From contig SHZF01000046.1 of the NCBI GenBank assembly GCA_009692425.1, forward strand, positions 1 through 33,921: a DNA stretch of 33,921 nucleotides. Direction: 5' to 3'. Under the pieces are notes generated by a model. That model was not told where the DNA came from and searched no databases. It saw nothing but the letters and a program-made list of their open reading frames with translations. Position 1 is the first letter of the stretch. Each line of letters opens with the position of its first letter. Below, one piece after another: positions 20,128 through 26,266 of this stretch. Both the position numbers and the translations under genes were made by a program. This stretch comes from Myxococcales bacterium (GTDB taxonomy: Bacteria > Myxococcota_A > UBA9042).

Positions 20128-21018
20128 CTACGCCAACGCCGCCGCCAGATAGCGCCCCACCACCTTGCCGTGCCAAGCCCACATCGCGCGCCGCCGCTCA
20201 AGCAGCCACACCTCGGCGGCTGGCAATTCCAGGTCCGCCGCCGCCGCCAGGGCCAGGTCGAGTTCCGCGTCGGCCTGCCCCAAGGCCATGTCAGCTCCGC
20301 CGCGCAACAACCACTGCATGAAGGCGCCCGCGTCGCCGACGTCTGCCTGGGCAATCAGCCAGGTGCGCCGACCTTCCCGAAAATCGCCGAGCGCATCGCG
20401 CAAGTCGTCGAAGTGCTGGTGGGCGCGCACGGTCGCCTGCACGAGCCCGCGGGCCCGCTCGACGTCGTGCCAGCGCCCGCGGGCCACGAGCAGGGCGGCA
20501 GCGGGCAGCAGCAAAGGTTCCGACCGGCGCAGGACCAGTTGAAAAGCCGCCAAGTCATACGGCACCCGCTGCCCCACGACCAGCCGCTCGAAGGCCATCG
20601 CTTCGGCGTAGGCCTGCCACAGTTCGGCGTGTAGCCGCCACCAGCGCGGGTCGCTCACGTGTTCGCCCGCCAGCGAAGAACTGCGTGCCAGCAGGGCGGT
20701 ACCGAGCAGCATCGCCTCGGTCGGGTCGCCGCGGGCTTCGTCCATCCAGTCGTCGTGCAGGCGCACCGCCAGGTAGCCCGCCAGCGCGGAGCCGATCACC
20801 GCGACCACGACGTCATCTGGCAGCCCGTCGGCGAACCAAAGTGGCAACAGCACCACGGGCTGCGACAGGTTGGCGAGATACGCTTCGGCTCCAGCGTCGG
20901 CGTGCAGCCCCGAGCCGGCAGTCACTGCATCAAAGGCGACACGCAGTTCTGGTGTCAGGCCGTCTGCCCACGCTCGCAACTGCAAGGAGGCGGCGGCCGC
21001 TACCACAGAGCAATCCAT
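20128..21018 (-). CDS. Class I isoprenoid-synthase-fold protein
   Basis: The 296-residue, almost all-helical protein has two Asp-rich motifs at the spacing expected for class I isoprenoid enzymes: DDWMD at 89-93 (DDxxD) and FDDLRD at 203-208 (FxDDxxD-like). These bind the magnesium-pyrophosphate group in prenyl synthases and terpene cyclases. Other conserved prenyltransferase segments (GGKRxRP, GEP) are not visible, so this is a divergent family member and not an ordinary FPP or GGPP synthase. Substrate and product are unknown. GAGG lies seven bases before ATG 21018, inside the end of the LarA-like gene nine bases upstream, so the two are co-translated. Confidence 0.65.
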   Translation of the reverse strand: MDCSVVAAAASLQLRAWADGLTPELRVAFDAVTAGSGLHADAGAEAYLANLSQPVVLLPLWFADGLPDDVVVAVIGSALAGYLAVRLHDDWMDEARGDPTEAMLLGTALLARSSSLAGEHVSDPRWWRLHAELWQAYAEAMAFERLVVGQRVPYDLAAFQLVLRRSEPLLLPAAALLVARGRWHDVERARGLVQATVRAHQHFDDLRDALGDFREGRRTWLIAQADVGDAGAFMQWLLRGGADMALGQADAELDLALAAAADLELPAAEVWLLERRRAMWAWHGKVVGRYLAAALA

Positions 21019-21027
21019 CGTGCGACC

Positions 21028-22644
21028 TCAGCTCACGTCCGCGATGAAAATCGGCGGAACCTTCATGTATGTCACGCTCATCGACGGCCCGTGGCTGTCG
21101 CGCGCCATGTCGAATGCGGTCGGCAGGTCCGGCGCCCACTCCCAGCCCATGCGCTCGGGCACGTGCGGGCTCTCGGCGCCGACGGCGATGATGCGGCTGT
21201 AGTGCTGGCGCCCGTTCTCGCCCCAATACCACATGTAGAACGGGTGAGCGCCGTGGTAGGCATTGCCGCGCCGGTACATCTGCACATAGTTGGGATTGCG
21301 AGCGAATTCGGCCTCGTACTTGTGTTGTAGTTTTTTGGCATCGCGCGTCTCGGGCAGCAGGCGGTTGAAGAACTCGATGTAGCTCGGGTGGTGGCCGGCG
21401 TGGAACTCGTCGTAGCACGGGTGCGTCAGGATCAGCGTGCCGCCCTTTTTCGCCACCGGCTTGCCGCGGTACATGTTGTGGAAATAGCCCAGCGCCATCA
21501 CCTGTACCAGCAGGGGATTCAGGATCGAATTGCAGTTGTACGGCGAGACGAACGGCACGCCGAACACCACGACGTCGGTCTGGCCCTCGAGCGGCACGCT
21601 GAACTGCTGCCAACTGCGGTCGAGCGTCTTCTCGTGCACCGGGTCGGTGCGGCCAGCGTGCACGGCAATCACGTCGTAGGGCGCGGGCGTGGCGTGCATG
21701 ATGGCGCGCTTGACCGGTCGCGGCATCTTGTGGAGCGCCCACTTCGCGGCTTGGAACTTCGAACGGTCGAGCGCCGTCCAGTCCTCTTCGGGCTTGGCGA
21801 GAAAATCGAGCGCCGGTCCGTACATGCGATTGTTCAGCACGGTCTCGACGGTGAATACGTTGACCTTCTCGTTGACCATCTTGCCCATGCGGTTGACCGA
21901 CTCGTGCATCGCCGAGCGCTTGGGGTCCATGTAGCTGTCGGACTTGCGGATGGCTTCGGGCGTGTGGTGCGCGGTCAGGCTGCGGTAGCCGCACAGGCCG
22001 ACGGCGACGGACTTGTGGCCGCCGTCCATCGGCACGAGGTTGATGTTCAGGTAGATGACGAGGTCCGACTCGGCCGCGCGCCGGTTGATCTCGACGACTT
22101 CACCCTGATCCGTGACGCCGAGTTCGGTCATGCCATCCGGGTCCTCGGCGTCGTGGTTGTACAGGCGGTTGGGTGCGTACTGGTTGTAGATGCGGTCGCC
22201 AACCATGCGGCGCAATTCGGCCTCAGTCATGCGGCGGTGCACGGCCAGCGCGACGATGATGTGGATGTCATCGACGCCGTGGTCAGCCACCAGTTGCAGC
22301 ACGATCTCGAGCATCGTCTGGCGCACGTCGGGCAGTACCATCTTCGGCAGCGGCACGCTGATGTCGTCGAGCGCGATCGTGAGTTTCATCCCGGGCTTGA
22401 GCATCGCGAACAGCGGGTCGCAACCCTCGGGGTGGTTCAGCGCGTGGCGGATGGCCGCCGGCACGTTGTTCAGGCCGTCGAGCGGAGGCGGCGGTAGCAC
22501 GACGCGGGTACCAACCGGCAGTTCTTCCTCGCGAAAGTCCTCGCCAAAGTGGAACACGCGCTTGGGGCTCGACGTGTCCTGGTAGACCACGCAGTTGCGC
22601 AAGCTGGCGGCCGAGGCGCGGCGAGGGGCGTCGAATGGCGTCAT
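21028..22644 (-). CDS. LarA-like (DUF2088) protein, divergent lactate racemase family
   Basis: The 538-residue protein matches the LarA/DUF2088 family, whose founding member racemises lactate with a nickel-pincer cofactor. Seen are [10 protein letters not shown] near residue 90 (the N-terminal DxTR-like segment), [18 protein letters not shown] with His136, and [21 protein letters not shown] with Lys211 and His226/227. In LarA a Lys holds the cofactor and three His act nearby. The Lys and two His appear present here. The PH-Y/F-AG stretch that carries the other catalytic His of LarA reads VPMDGG, so that His seems to be absent. The C-terminal third (about 390-538) is longer than in LarA. Maturation proteins LarB, LarC and LarE are not in the window. 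It sits in an operon after a HAD phosphatase and before an isoprenoid-fold protein. Confidence 0.8.
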
Positions 22645-22693
22645 GGGGGTCCTTGCGCGGGTTGCCGACGGGCGGGCGGCTTGTCAGGTTCAG

Positions 22694-22733
22694 CGCCAGT
22701 CTTTCAGGTCAAGCGTCAGTCTTTCAGGTCCAG
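22694..22733 (-). repeat. Tandem 20-base duplication at the end of the HAD-IB gene
   Basis: Two near-identical 20-base units lie head to tail at 22694-22713 and 22714-22733, sharing CAGTCTTTCAGGTC. A partial third copy lies at 22681-22693. The repeat copies the last codons of the HAD gene (Leu-Asp-Leu-Lys-Asp) past its stop codon, a small local duplication. Confidence 0.8.
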
Positions 22734-23471
22734 AACGGGCCACTGGTAGTCACGGGCGGCGGCGCGCAGTTGCAGGTCCGGGTTGACGGCGCACGGGCGG
22801 CCGACGATGGACAGCATCGGCAGGTCGGACGCACTGTCGGCGTAGGCCCAGCACTGCTGGAGATCGAGACCGTGTTCCGTGGCGTACTGGCGCACCCAGG
22901 CCGACTTGTTCGCGCCCGCCAGCAGCGTGCCGACCAGCCGGCCGGTGGCCACGCCGTTGACGATTTCGAGGCGGTTCGCGCCGTAGTCGTCGGCGCCCAG
23001 GAAGCGGGCGAGCGGCCGCGTCACGAAGTCGAGCGAGCCCGTCACGAGCACCTGTTTTACGCCCGCCTCGCGCGACCGTCGGATCAGGTCGACGGCGCCC
23101 GGGAAAAGGCTCGGCTTGATGACGTTCTCGAAGATCTCCTCGCCGATGACCCACAGCCGGTCTTCGGTGAAGCCCGCGTAGTTCTTGTAGAACCACTCGT
23201 TGAAGAACTTGCGGCTGTAGAAGTCAGCGGCCAGATAGGCGGGGATGGACGCGAGCATCGTCGCAAACCCGAACGCGCGGCGCCGCAGCGACGGGTGGTT
23301 GGCGACGTAGTAGGCGTAGGTGTGGACGATGTTGACCGAAACGAGGGTGCCGTCGACGTCGTAGAAGGCGGCGGAGCGGGGCGCGTCGAGCTTGCCCGAA
23401 GGGGCTGTGCTGGCCGACGGAACAGGCGCGTGCGGTGCAGCGGCGAGCGGGTGCGGGTGCGGGTGGGGCAT
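22716..23471 (-). CDS. HAD-IB family phosphatase
   Basis: The 251-residue protein has all four motifs of HAD subfamily IB: YDVDGTL (nucleophile Asp), VTGS, the Lys in AGANKSAW, and YADSASDLPML. The region between motifs I and II (YYVANHPSLRRRAFGFATML, AYLAADFYSRKFFNEWFY) has the helical cap of HAD-IB enzymes often found next to acyltransferases. Proteins of this group act on phosphorylated small molecules such as phosphoserine or lipid phosphates; the substrate here is unknown. ATG 23471 gives a His/Pro/Ala-rich N-terminus; a longer frame upstream is less likely. It is the first gene of a three-gene operon. Confidence 0.85.
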   Translation of the reverse strand: MPHPHPHPLAAAPHAPVPSASTAPSGKLDAPRSAAFYDVDGTLVSVNIVHTYAYYVANHPSLRRRAFGFATMLASIPAYLAADFYSRKFFNEWFYKNYAGFTEDRLWVIGEEIFENVIKPSLFPGAVDLIRRSREAGVKQVLVTGSLDFVTRPLARFLGADDYGANRLEIVNGVATGRLVGTLLAGANKSAWVRQYATEHGLDLQQCWAYADSASDLPMLSIVGRPCAVNPDLQLRAAARDYQWPVLDLKD

Positions 23472-23664
23472 CGGTGGCGGGCTCAGGGAAAGCGTGCGGG
23501 GGCAAACCGGAAAAATCGGGAGCGGGAGCCTAGCCGCGGTTGGAAGCGGGCGCAACCGAAAACGGCCGAACGGGCCCCGGTCTCGCTATACGGCCACGCA
23601 AATCGAATAGGCTGTGCGTCCGCGGGCGTCCGACGATCGGGCCGGCGCTGGTACCAAGGGACGC

Positions 23665-24736
23665 ATGGCACGGCGCGCTACGTTCAGAAGCATCGTCGCC
23701 TCCGCCGTCCTGCTGACCGCATGTGGCGGCGGCCCGGTCGCTGCGCCGGACGCCAAGGGGGCTGCTGGGACCGATGCTGCCCACGACTCCGCTGCGGCCG
23801 ACCTGGCGAGCGTGGATGTCGCTGCGGTGGCGTGCCCCGGGGGTTCGGGCTGCCCGTGCGGCCAGGATGGCGACTGCGATGCCGGGCTCTGCGTCGACAC
23901 ATCGAACAGTGCCCGCTGTGCGCGACCGTGCGTGGCCGGGTGTCCCGACGACAGCGCCGGGCAGTATGCCGCAGCTGAGCATCGCCCTTCGCGAGCCGAT
24001 GCCCCGCGCTGTGGCGTTGGTCCAGGCGTTGACCGGCATTGCCCAGGCGGGCCCCGAGCTTGGCAAGCTGGGCCCAGTGGCGGTCGGTTCCCAGTTCATT
24101 GCGGGCGATGTCGTCACGACCGACGAGGCCGCAGCGGCGCGGCTCGCGTTGGCCGACGGCAGTTTCGATGCGCTACGAGGCGAGACGACCCTGCGCATCG
24201 GTCGCGTCGAACTGACCGCAGAGCTCAAGCGCACCGTCAAGCTCGAACTCATCAAGGGTCAAGTCGAGGCCATCGCAGAGTTCAAGGGCGCCGGCTCGAG
24301 CTTTGACGTGTTCACGACTACCGGGCTGGCCGGCGTGCTCGGTACCCGGTTGCGCGTTCGCACGTTGTCGTCCGGTGGCACGGGCGTCGAGTGCTTCAGG
24401 GGCGCGAGCAACTGCAGGCGACGATCGGCGCCAAACACAGCGTCACGGTCGAGGGCGGTCAATCCGCTGCGGTCGGCGCCATGGGCAACGTCAGTCAGCC
24501 GGCGCCCTCGGATGCCGCCGCCCAAGACAGTGCCGAGACCGCTCCGGGACTTCCAGATGCCGAGACGGACCTTGCCGGCGCCGACGCGGACCCGGCAGAA
24601 GGCACCGCCAGCCGCTGCGAAGGCACGATATGCAGTGACGACAACCCCTGCACCCAGGAGGGCTGCACCAATGGCAAGTGCACGTCTGTCGCCGTCGGTG
24701 GGCCCTGTCAGAACGGCGACTTGCACCCTCGTGTGA
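23665..24736 (+). pseudogene. Frameshifted FecR-domain, Cys-rich lipoprotein gene
   Basis: ATG 23665 opens a lipoprotein signal ending LLTACG (Cys20), then an Asp/Ala-rich linker and a Cys-rich segment (CPCGQDGDCDAGLC). After about 23,960 the reading continues in the next frame with a FecR-type domain: VGSQFIAGDVVTTDE, ARLALADGSFDALRGETTL, TGLAGVLGTRLRVRT. At about 24,390 it returns to the first frame (LQGREQLQATIGAKHSVTVEGG). One missing G would turn GAGTGC into GAGGTGC and restore a single frame there. A Cys-rich tail follows (CSDDNPCTQEGCTNGKC), and a third shift near 24,720 would add CTLV before a stop. With three breaks, decay is more likely than sequencing error, but assembly error cannot be ruled out. 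The last part meets the convergent carotenoid oxygenase gene. Confidence 0.75.
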
Positions 24737-24778: not shown

Positions 24779-26266
24779 CTACCCCGCGTCCGCCACCCAC
24801 AGCCCATGGAACCCGAACGGCACCCGGCGCGGCAGCAGCACCCTGGCGACGGGCTTGGCCGCCAGGTTCGTCGCGTCGAGCACCAGGAGTTCACTGCGGT
24901 TCGTCGTAGCGTCGTACAAGAACGACAGCAGCCACCCCTCGTCTTCGCCCTTGGCACCAGCGGCAGGCACGAAGCGCGGCTCGTCGGTCTGGCGACCCGG
25001 GCCCAGCACATGCGCCTGCACTGCACCCGTTTTGCGGTCGAACTTCAGCACGCGGTTCTGCTGGCCCGTGCGCAGGGAGTGGTCCGTGCTGGCGGGGATT
25101 TCGAGGCCGAACCCGAAGCGGTGCTCGCGGCCGACGCGCCCTGGTGCCACCTGGGGGAACTCGAAGGCGACGTCGGCCAACTGCTCCTCCTTGACCGTCT
25201 TCGCCGCCAAGTCGAGCGTCCAGCGCCACAGCCGCGGCAGGTACGGGATCGTCTCGGGCCCGCCCACCCACATCTTCTCGGTGCGGCATGCTTCGATTGA
25301 AACCGTGCCACCGGCATCATAGGCATTCAGCACATGAAACACGTAGCACGGCGCGATGTCGAACCACGCCACACTCTTGCCGTCGCCGTTGCGGTCCATC
25401 ACGCCGATGCGCGCCTGGTAAGTGGGATTCCACTGGTACGGAATGCTGCCGTTGAACGCCAATTGCAGGTCCAGCGTCACCGGCAGGTCGAGAATGATGG
25501 CCTTGGTCTGCGTCAGCGCCATGTCGTGCATCATGCTCGGCCCGGCGCCAGTGACCTCGACCGACGACATGAGCTTGCCCGCCGCATCGACGCGGTGGAC
25601 CTGGACGAACGGCGCGAACGCTGCGTAGCTGTGGAAGAACATCTCGCCGGTGACCGGGTCGAGCTTGGGGTGGGCGCTCATCGAACGCTGCAGCTTGCTC
25701 GCGAAGTCCCACGCGCCGACGCTGACGAGGTCGGCGGTCACCTCGAAGGGCAGCCCCGCCTCGTACAGCGCGAGCAACCGGTCGGCGTGCCAGACCAGCG
25801 ACGTGTTGGCCGCCGTGTCCTCGATGCTTGGCGGCAGCCCAGGTTGCGACTTCGGCTTGCCGCGCAGCAGGCCCGTGTTGGCCCAGCGATTGCGGTAGCG
25901 CAGGGCCTTGCCGCCTTGCAGCCGCACGCCGTGGAGCATGCCGTCGCCAAGGAACCAGTGCTTCGAGGGGCCGGACTTCGGGTTCGGTCCGTTGCGCAGG
26001 TAGCTGCCGGCGAGTTCCTTGGGCAAGGCGCCGATGACGGTCAAGGCCGTGGCGTCGATTTCGTCGCCGACCGGGCTGTAGTTGCCTTGCAGCCACCAGC
26101 TGCCGGTGCTGGGCAGACCGCCGTCGACCCAGGGCACGTCGACCGATGTGGCGGCGTCGCTGGCGCCGGAAGGGCTGCCGCTGCCGGTACAGCCAGGGAA
26201 CCAGTGGGTGGCGAGCAGGCCTGCTGATGCGGTGCCGGTATGGTGGAGGAAGCTGCGGCGGTCCAT
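24779..26266 (-). CDS. Carotenoid oxygenase (RPE65/CCD family), predicted Tat-exported lipoprotein
   Basis: The 495-residue protein belongs to the non-haem iron carotenoid/stilbene cleavage dioxygenases, which split conjugated double bonds with oxygen. The four iron-binding His are recognised at His199 (SAHPKL), His247 (MMHDMA), His311 (VFHVLNAY) and His487 (FGFHGLW). NGPNP, GDGMLHG and the seven-blade propeller spacing fit the family. The N-terminus has a twin-arginine signal (MDRRSFL) and a lipobox-like WFPGC at about residue 26, so the enzyme should be folded before export and tethered to the envelope. That is unusual for this mostly cytoplasmic family. ATG 26266 has GAGG six bases upstream. 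The 149-base space up to the next gene on the same strand shows nothing clear. Confidence 0.9.
   Translation of the reverse strand: MDRRSFLHHTGTASAGLLATHWFPGCTGSGSPSGASDAATSVDVPWVDGGLPSTGSWWLQGNYSPVGDEIDATALTVIGALPKELAGSYLRNGPNPKSGPSKHWFLGDGMLHGVRLQGGKALRYRNRWANTGLLRGKPKSQPGLPPSIEDTAANTSLVWHADRLLALYEAGLPFEVTADLVSVGAWDFASKLQRSMSAHPKLDPVTGEMFFHSYAAFAPFVQVHRVDAAGKLMSSVEVTGAGPSMMHDMALTQTKAIILDLPVTLDLQLAFNGSIPYQWNPTYQARIGVMDRNGDGKSVAWFDIAPCYVFHVLNAYDAGGTVSIEACRTEKMWVGGPETIPYLPRLWRWTLDLAAKTVKEEQLADVAFEFPQVAPGRVGREHRFGFGLEIPASTDHSLRTGQQNRVLKFDRKTGAVQAHVLGPGRQTDEPRFVPAAGAKGEDEGWLLSFLYDATTNRSELLVLDATNLAAKPVARVLLPRRVPFGFHGLWVADAG

Follow-up and report, generated by a model that had tools for sequence, protein, structure and literature searches.

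The window analysed here, the whole 33,921-nucleotide stretch of contig SHZF01000046.1 from a Myxococcales bacterium, carries three neighbouring genes on its minus strand. An earlier note, made from the sequence alone, had placed three reading frames here and assigned them to the HAD-IB, LarA-like and isoprenoid-fold families. The frames and their strand are confirmed, and the family calls hold as well: the first two proteins score over curated cut-offs, and the third is identified by its AlphaFold2 model and PDB matches. The features of the locus are as follows.

22716..23471, minus strand: HAD-IB phosphatase, probable elbB homologue; 251 aa from the ATG at 23471, with four HAD motifs
21028..22644, minus strand: LarA-like nickel-pincer protein, probable elbC homologue; 538 aa, LarAH14/15/16 family, single catalytic histidine
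21019..21030, minus strand: LarA stop codon and 9-base gap; GAGG overlaps the stop (...GAGCTGAGGTCGCACG-ATG)
20128..21018, minus strand: divergent trans-prenyl-synthase-fold protein; 296 aa, occupying the place of elbD in most other genomes
24779-26266, minus strand: carotenoid oxygenase (RPE65, 382 bits), about 1.3 kb from the HAD gene

The HAD protein matches Pfam HAD (PF12710) with 126 bits and TIGR01490 (HAD-IB) with 128 bits against a cut-off of 98.3. It contains the DxDGT, Ser/Thr, Lys and Dx(3)D motifs, and DxDGT, the motif-III Lys and DSxSD (one S/A exception) are kept across 66 HAD homologues. The protein would be a lipid- or glycerol-phosphate phosphatase. Past the 3′ end of the HAD gene (window 22690-22730), a near-copy of its last bases (GACCTGAAAGACTG...) forms a short tandem duplication in the gap before the LarA-like gene.

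Nine bases separate the LarA stop codon from the ATG of the isoprenoid-fold gene, and the ribosome-site-like GAGG overlaps that stop, bearing out the proposal that the last two genes are tightly coupled. As far as sequence can tell, this spacing is consistent with translational coupling of the LarA-like and isoprenoid-fold genes. The carotenoid oxygenase expected beyond the first gene is present on the same strand. Open frames on the opposite strand (23614-24736, plus) sit between it and the HAD gene, so it probably lies outside the operon; as it is also absent from the layout that recurs in other genomes, it was discarded as an operon member.

The LarA-like protein scores 134 bits against Pfam Lar_N and, over nearly its full length, 834.6 bits against NCBIfam NF052592 (LarAH14/15/16, cut-off 740), a family titled NPN-dependent 'hydroxyacid isomerase'. 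In a profile alignment of ElbC, as we name the protein for reasons given below, to LarA structures, His108, Lys184 and His200 of LarA correspond to H136 (first catalytic His), K211 (covalent Lys) and H227 (nickel His), which are invariant in 76/76 proteins. The position of LarA His174 is ElbC 202, occupied by Asn in 62, Thr in 13 and Ser in 1, and by His in 0/76. Since the second catalytic histidine is never present, ElbC is not expected to be an ordinary racemase, and a two-histidine racemase was ruled out. The protein at this position is probably a nickel-cofactor enzyme, and ElbC would hold the nickel-pincer cofactor.

The AlphaFold2 model of ElbC (pLDDT 88) is closest in fold to two solved single-histidine LarA-like enzymes, 9q3k and 9q3j. 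When sequence is considered as well as fold, the nearest solved relatives are these enzymes of Streptococcus plurextorum (PDB 9q2u/9q3k) and Blautia wexlerae (PDB 9q3j) (PMC12611868). Like them, ElbC mostly has Asn at the His174 position, and Tyr307 and His401 of LarA-Sp are matched by Tyr and His in ElbC. Unlike them, it carries an invariant Pro at the His306 position, and identity is only 20–23%. The two enzymes are linked to carbohydrate metabolism (PMC12611868), whereas ElbC is linked to ether lipids. Groups 14 and 15 of the superfamily lack His174 (PMC12611868). Group 16 was set aside in a 2020 paper as perhaps not cofactor-using (PMC7583248); contrary to this exclusion, the conserved residues argue that these proteins do use the cofactor. 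LarAH14/15/16, a family of groups defined in PMC7583248 and without a demonstrated reaction in the published work consulted, gains a pathway context here.

This context comes from the gene neighbourhoods of LarAH14/15/16, which were gathered across Myxococcota at 76 loci, 71 of them with enough upstream sequence. A HAD gene lies directly upstream of LarA on the same strand in 65 of the 71 testable loci; in Myxococcota, these two genes form a conserved pair. Downstream of LarA, 51/64 loci encode a protein of about 1600 aa with male-sterility-type fatty acyl reductase, AMP-binding (ACS), carrier and PlsC acyltransferase domains, and in 33/45 this protein is followed by an SDR of the NAD epimerase family. 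An adjacent ElbD is missing in 13/64 loci, about one fifth. Most Myxococcota loci thereby share the order of the M. xanthus elbA-elbE operon, in which elbB encodes a HAD-family protein, elbC comes next, elbD encodes a FAR/ACS/ACP/acyltransferase protein and elbE a NAD epimerase/dehydratase-family protein (PMC9131029). ElbC was called a protein of unknown function in a 2022 review (PMC9131029). Because the LarA-like gene sits between the HAD and elbD-type genes as elbC does, we identify ElbC as the LarA-like protein; the two M. xanthus genes, elbB and elbC, are matched by their place in the gene order, not by comparison of protein sequences.

The window has a HAD gene and then an elbC-position gene on one strand. 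We consider it probable (about 0.8) that these two genes are elbB and elbC and that ElbC is a nickel-pincer enzyme. The earlier suggestion that a phosphatase and an enzyme of nickel-pincer type take part in a small-molecule pathway, here a lipid one, is thereby supported. That all three genes make up one undescribed pathway is not supported, and the HAD-LarA pair belongs to the published elb ether-lipid operon (PMC9131029). A search of the open-access literature, with the 2014 primary paper and the LarA supplementary tables outside its scope, found no paper linking LarA to Elb, and priority for this link is not certain.

ElbD, and possibly ElbE, is required for ether lipids in M. xanthus: loss of elbD strongly reduces both alkyl and vinyl ether lipids, and loss of elbE decreases them (PMC9131029). 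An insertion in elbB lowers ether lipids and is rescued only partially by elbD, an effect that was ascribed to polarity on elbD (PMC9131029). The partial rescue would also fit a requirement for ElbC or ElbB. The elb papers examined describe no elbC mutant.

Unlike the M. xanthus operon, the locus in the window is split. The pair elbB-elbC is followed by the isoprenoid-fold gene, and elbD and elbE are present in the genome, unlinked to the pair. The further genes of this genome that bear on ether lipids are the following.

Contig C123:20867-25495: elbD, adjacent to elbE
Contig C123:19822-20796: elbE, adjacent to elbD
Contig C67 (locus L185:1360-2145): CarF/PEDS1-family lipid desaturase, 183 bits in Pfam and 236 bits against the CarF equivalog cut-off of 500

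The ElbD of this genome (L066:8862-13544, on contig C123) has no Pfam-detectable phosphopantetheine (PP-binding) carrier domain, unlike the ElbD of M. xanthus, for which carrier activity was reported, and unlike that of locus L046. CarF homologues are said to be confined to one myxobacterial suborder (PMC9131029). With a desaturase of this family present and scoring below the equivalog cut-off, vinyl ethers are possible products of the organism.

All three cofactor genes, larB, larC and larE, are in the genome. LarE and LarB exceed the NCBIfam cut-offs, and LarC, a fragment at a contig edge, is still over its own. The LarA-like protein of the window is the sole Lar_N protein of this genome, a situation found in seven other ElbC genomes, which makes ElbC the probable user of the nickel-pincer cofactor that LarB, LarC and LarE produce.

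ElbC and ElbD are inherited together. Of 90 relatives, 16 have LarAH14/15/16 (counted at >720 bits); these are precisely the ones with ElbD, and every one of them has LarC. Among 379 Myxococcota genomes, ElbC is found in 111, ElbD in 110 and both in 107 (107/114 carriers), with a Fisher p of about 3e-85, a value overstated because genomes share ancestry and are not independent. The mismatches amount to 7 genomes, mostly incomplete or fragmented, and LarC is found in 103 of the 111 ElbC genomes. The distances in the ElbC and ElbD trees correlate with r = 0.95 (47 loci). Genome G284 is the partner of this genome in both trees, for the ElbC of the window (support 0.91) and for its unlinked ElbD (1.00). 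Within its family this genome alone (1/22) has either gene, from which we infer that the set was acquired together; the data suggest that the elb set reached the genome as one acquisition.

Neither Pfam nor NCBIfam gives a hit for the isoprenoid-fold protein, and no PDB entry matches it by sequence. Its AlphaFold2 model is all-helical (pLDDT 89), and a Foldseek search of the PDB places it nearest to trans-polyprenyl diphosphate synthases. The protein shares the fold of 3nf2, 5jfq and 1wmw (TM-score on query 0.64–0.69; identity about 17–19%) and both Asp-rich metal motifs of trans-isoprenyl diphosphate synthases, D89-D90-x-x-D93 and Q201...D205-x-x-D208-x-x-x-D212. In an alignment of eleven members DDxxD is kept, apart from one DQxxD and one sequence truncated there, and so is the second motif, QxxxDxxDxxxD. 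The lack of pyrophosphate binding that the earlier note named as a refutation is not seen at the level of motifs, and binding of metal and diphosphate is plausible. Inspection of the same alignment found no conserved Lys/Arg at the GGKR and RRG isopentenyl-diphosphate motifs, which distinguishes the protein from 3nf2, 5jfq and 1wmw and makes chain elongation unlikely; a normal prenyl elongase was dismissed on this ground. The protein likely acts on an isoprenoid diphosphate.

This gene does not follow elbC elsewhere. The family occurs in 30 of the 379 Myxococcota genomes, 13 of which also have LarAH14/15/16, a co-occurrence that is not significant (p = 0.09), and the nearest homologues within the same family are in genomes without LarAH14/15/16. 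Beside elbC it is found in 1/76 loci, that of the window, and in 0/75 others. The prediction that the trio would recur in other genomes failed, and the idea of one conserved pathway of three genes was given up for want of such recurrence, the HAD-LarA pair being what recurs across Myxococcota. The isoprenoid-fold gene is probably a lineage-specific addition to elbBC and co-transcribed with it. It may be a gene of the specialised-metabolism type that became attached to elbBC here, and nothing places it in the core ether-lipid pathway.

The ether lipids of myxobacteria are related to animal plasmalogens, and animals form alkyl-dihydroxyacetone phosphate with AGPS. A working scheme for the bacterial route is far less certain as a whole than the elbB-elbC assignment, and the individual chemical steps of ElbB and ElbC are put forward as candidates. 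ElbD would activate the fatty acid and reduce it to the aldehyde. ElbC, using the nickel-pincer nucleotide that LarB, LarC and LarE supply, would perform a one-sided hydride transfer on a pathway intermediate, with no racemisation of a hydroxy acid, and by such hydride movement would help turn the aldehyde and a glycerol (phosphate) unit into the alkyl ether. ElbE would reduce the resulting ketone, the acyltransferase domain of ElbD would fill sn-2, ElbB would remove the phosphate, and the CarF-like desaturase could form the vinyl ether. In its most specific form, which we hold to be improbable, the fatty aldehyde and glycerol phosphate give a hemiacetal, and the glycerol C2 hydride passes via the ElbC cofactor to the aldehyde-derived carbon, yielding alkyl-dihydroxyacetone phosphate for reduction by ElbE. 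This route fits the aldehyde that is present in the wild type and absent in elbD mutants (PMC9131029), as well as the SDR encoded downstream.

Other roles for ElbC have to be weighed against the one-sided hydride transfer. Membership of the LarA superfamily and the NCBIfam name hydroxyacid isomerase would suit an ordinary alpha-hydroxy-acid racemase or epimerase that feeds one stereoisomer, for example of 2-hydroxy fatty acids or glycerate, to the ether-lipid pathway, and some LarA homologues do accept hydrophobic hydroxy acids (PMC11770544). However, the histidine that would serve the second enantiomer is missing from every one of the 76 proteins, and no racemase activity was seen for a group-14 member with the substrates tried (PMC7583248), so that we regard this role as unlikely. 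The missing histidine, together with the almost constant company of ElbD, could instead mean that ElbC has lost the cofactor and serves ElbD as a binding or structural subunit. The invariance of K211, H227 and H136 speaks against such a subunit, as does the absence from this genome of any other candidate to use the LarB/C/E cofactor, and we consider it very improbable.

The three genes could also form a lineage-specific pathway in which a prenyl diphosphate is joined to a product of ElbC and ElbB, or cyclised together with it, to give an isoprenoid-containing ether lipid or a terpenoid. The 9-base gap with its ribosome-site-like motif, and the prenyl-synthase fold with conserved metal/diphosphate motifs, favour this proposal. 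The single occurrence among the 76 loci, the lack of significant co-occurrence of the two families and the closest homologues in genomes without LarAH14/15/16 weigh against it, and we think it unlikely. The reading of the pair as elbB and elbC, with ElbC a nickel-pincer enzyme, is preferred.

The 2022 review counts the formation of the alkyl ether bond in aerobic bacterial plasmalogen-type lipids among the unknowns (PMC9131029), and the single-histidine LarA-like proteins have no known function (PMC12611868, PMC7583248). Placing a LarA-like protein in the elb pathway makes both questions testable. If true, the placement would bring membrane lipids, besides hydroxy acids, into the range of nickel-pincer chemistry, and the hydride-shift route, if true, would be a new, flavin-independent way to the same intermediate as that of the animal AGPS.

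Elsewhere the isoprenoid-fold gene has other neighbours. Among them are genes for a WelO5-like halogenase with a methyltransferase and for a protein resembling vanadium haloperoxidases, and in many loci genes for class III nucleotidyl cyclase-domain proteins. The class III adenylate/guanylate cyclase-domain proteins are near it in L188, L191, L192, L193, L195, L196, L197, L200, L038, L039 and L041, and L189 has a cNMP-binding protein; cyclase neighbours are absent from the window and its closest relatives. A contig scan with the isoprenoid-fold protein gave two loci only. One of them lies in the record CAMAWH010000023.1 (L010), titled as a Klebsiella pneumoniae MAG, which is equal in length to contig 23 of the Myxococcota genome G202; its label looks wrong. 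In L035:3267-5761 the gene adjoins a DUF6851/vanadium-chloroperoxidase-like gene, and in L038:3-2583 it is next to a WelO5-type halogenase and a methyltransferase; these two loci are possibly halogenated-terpenoid clusters.
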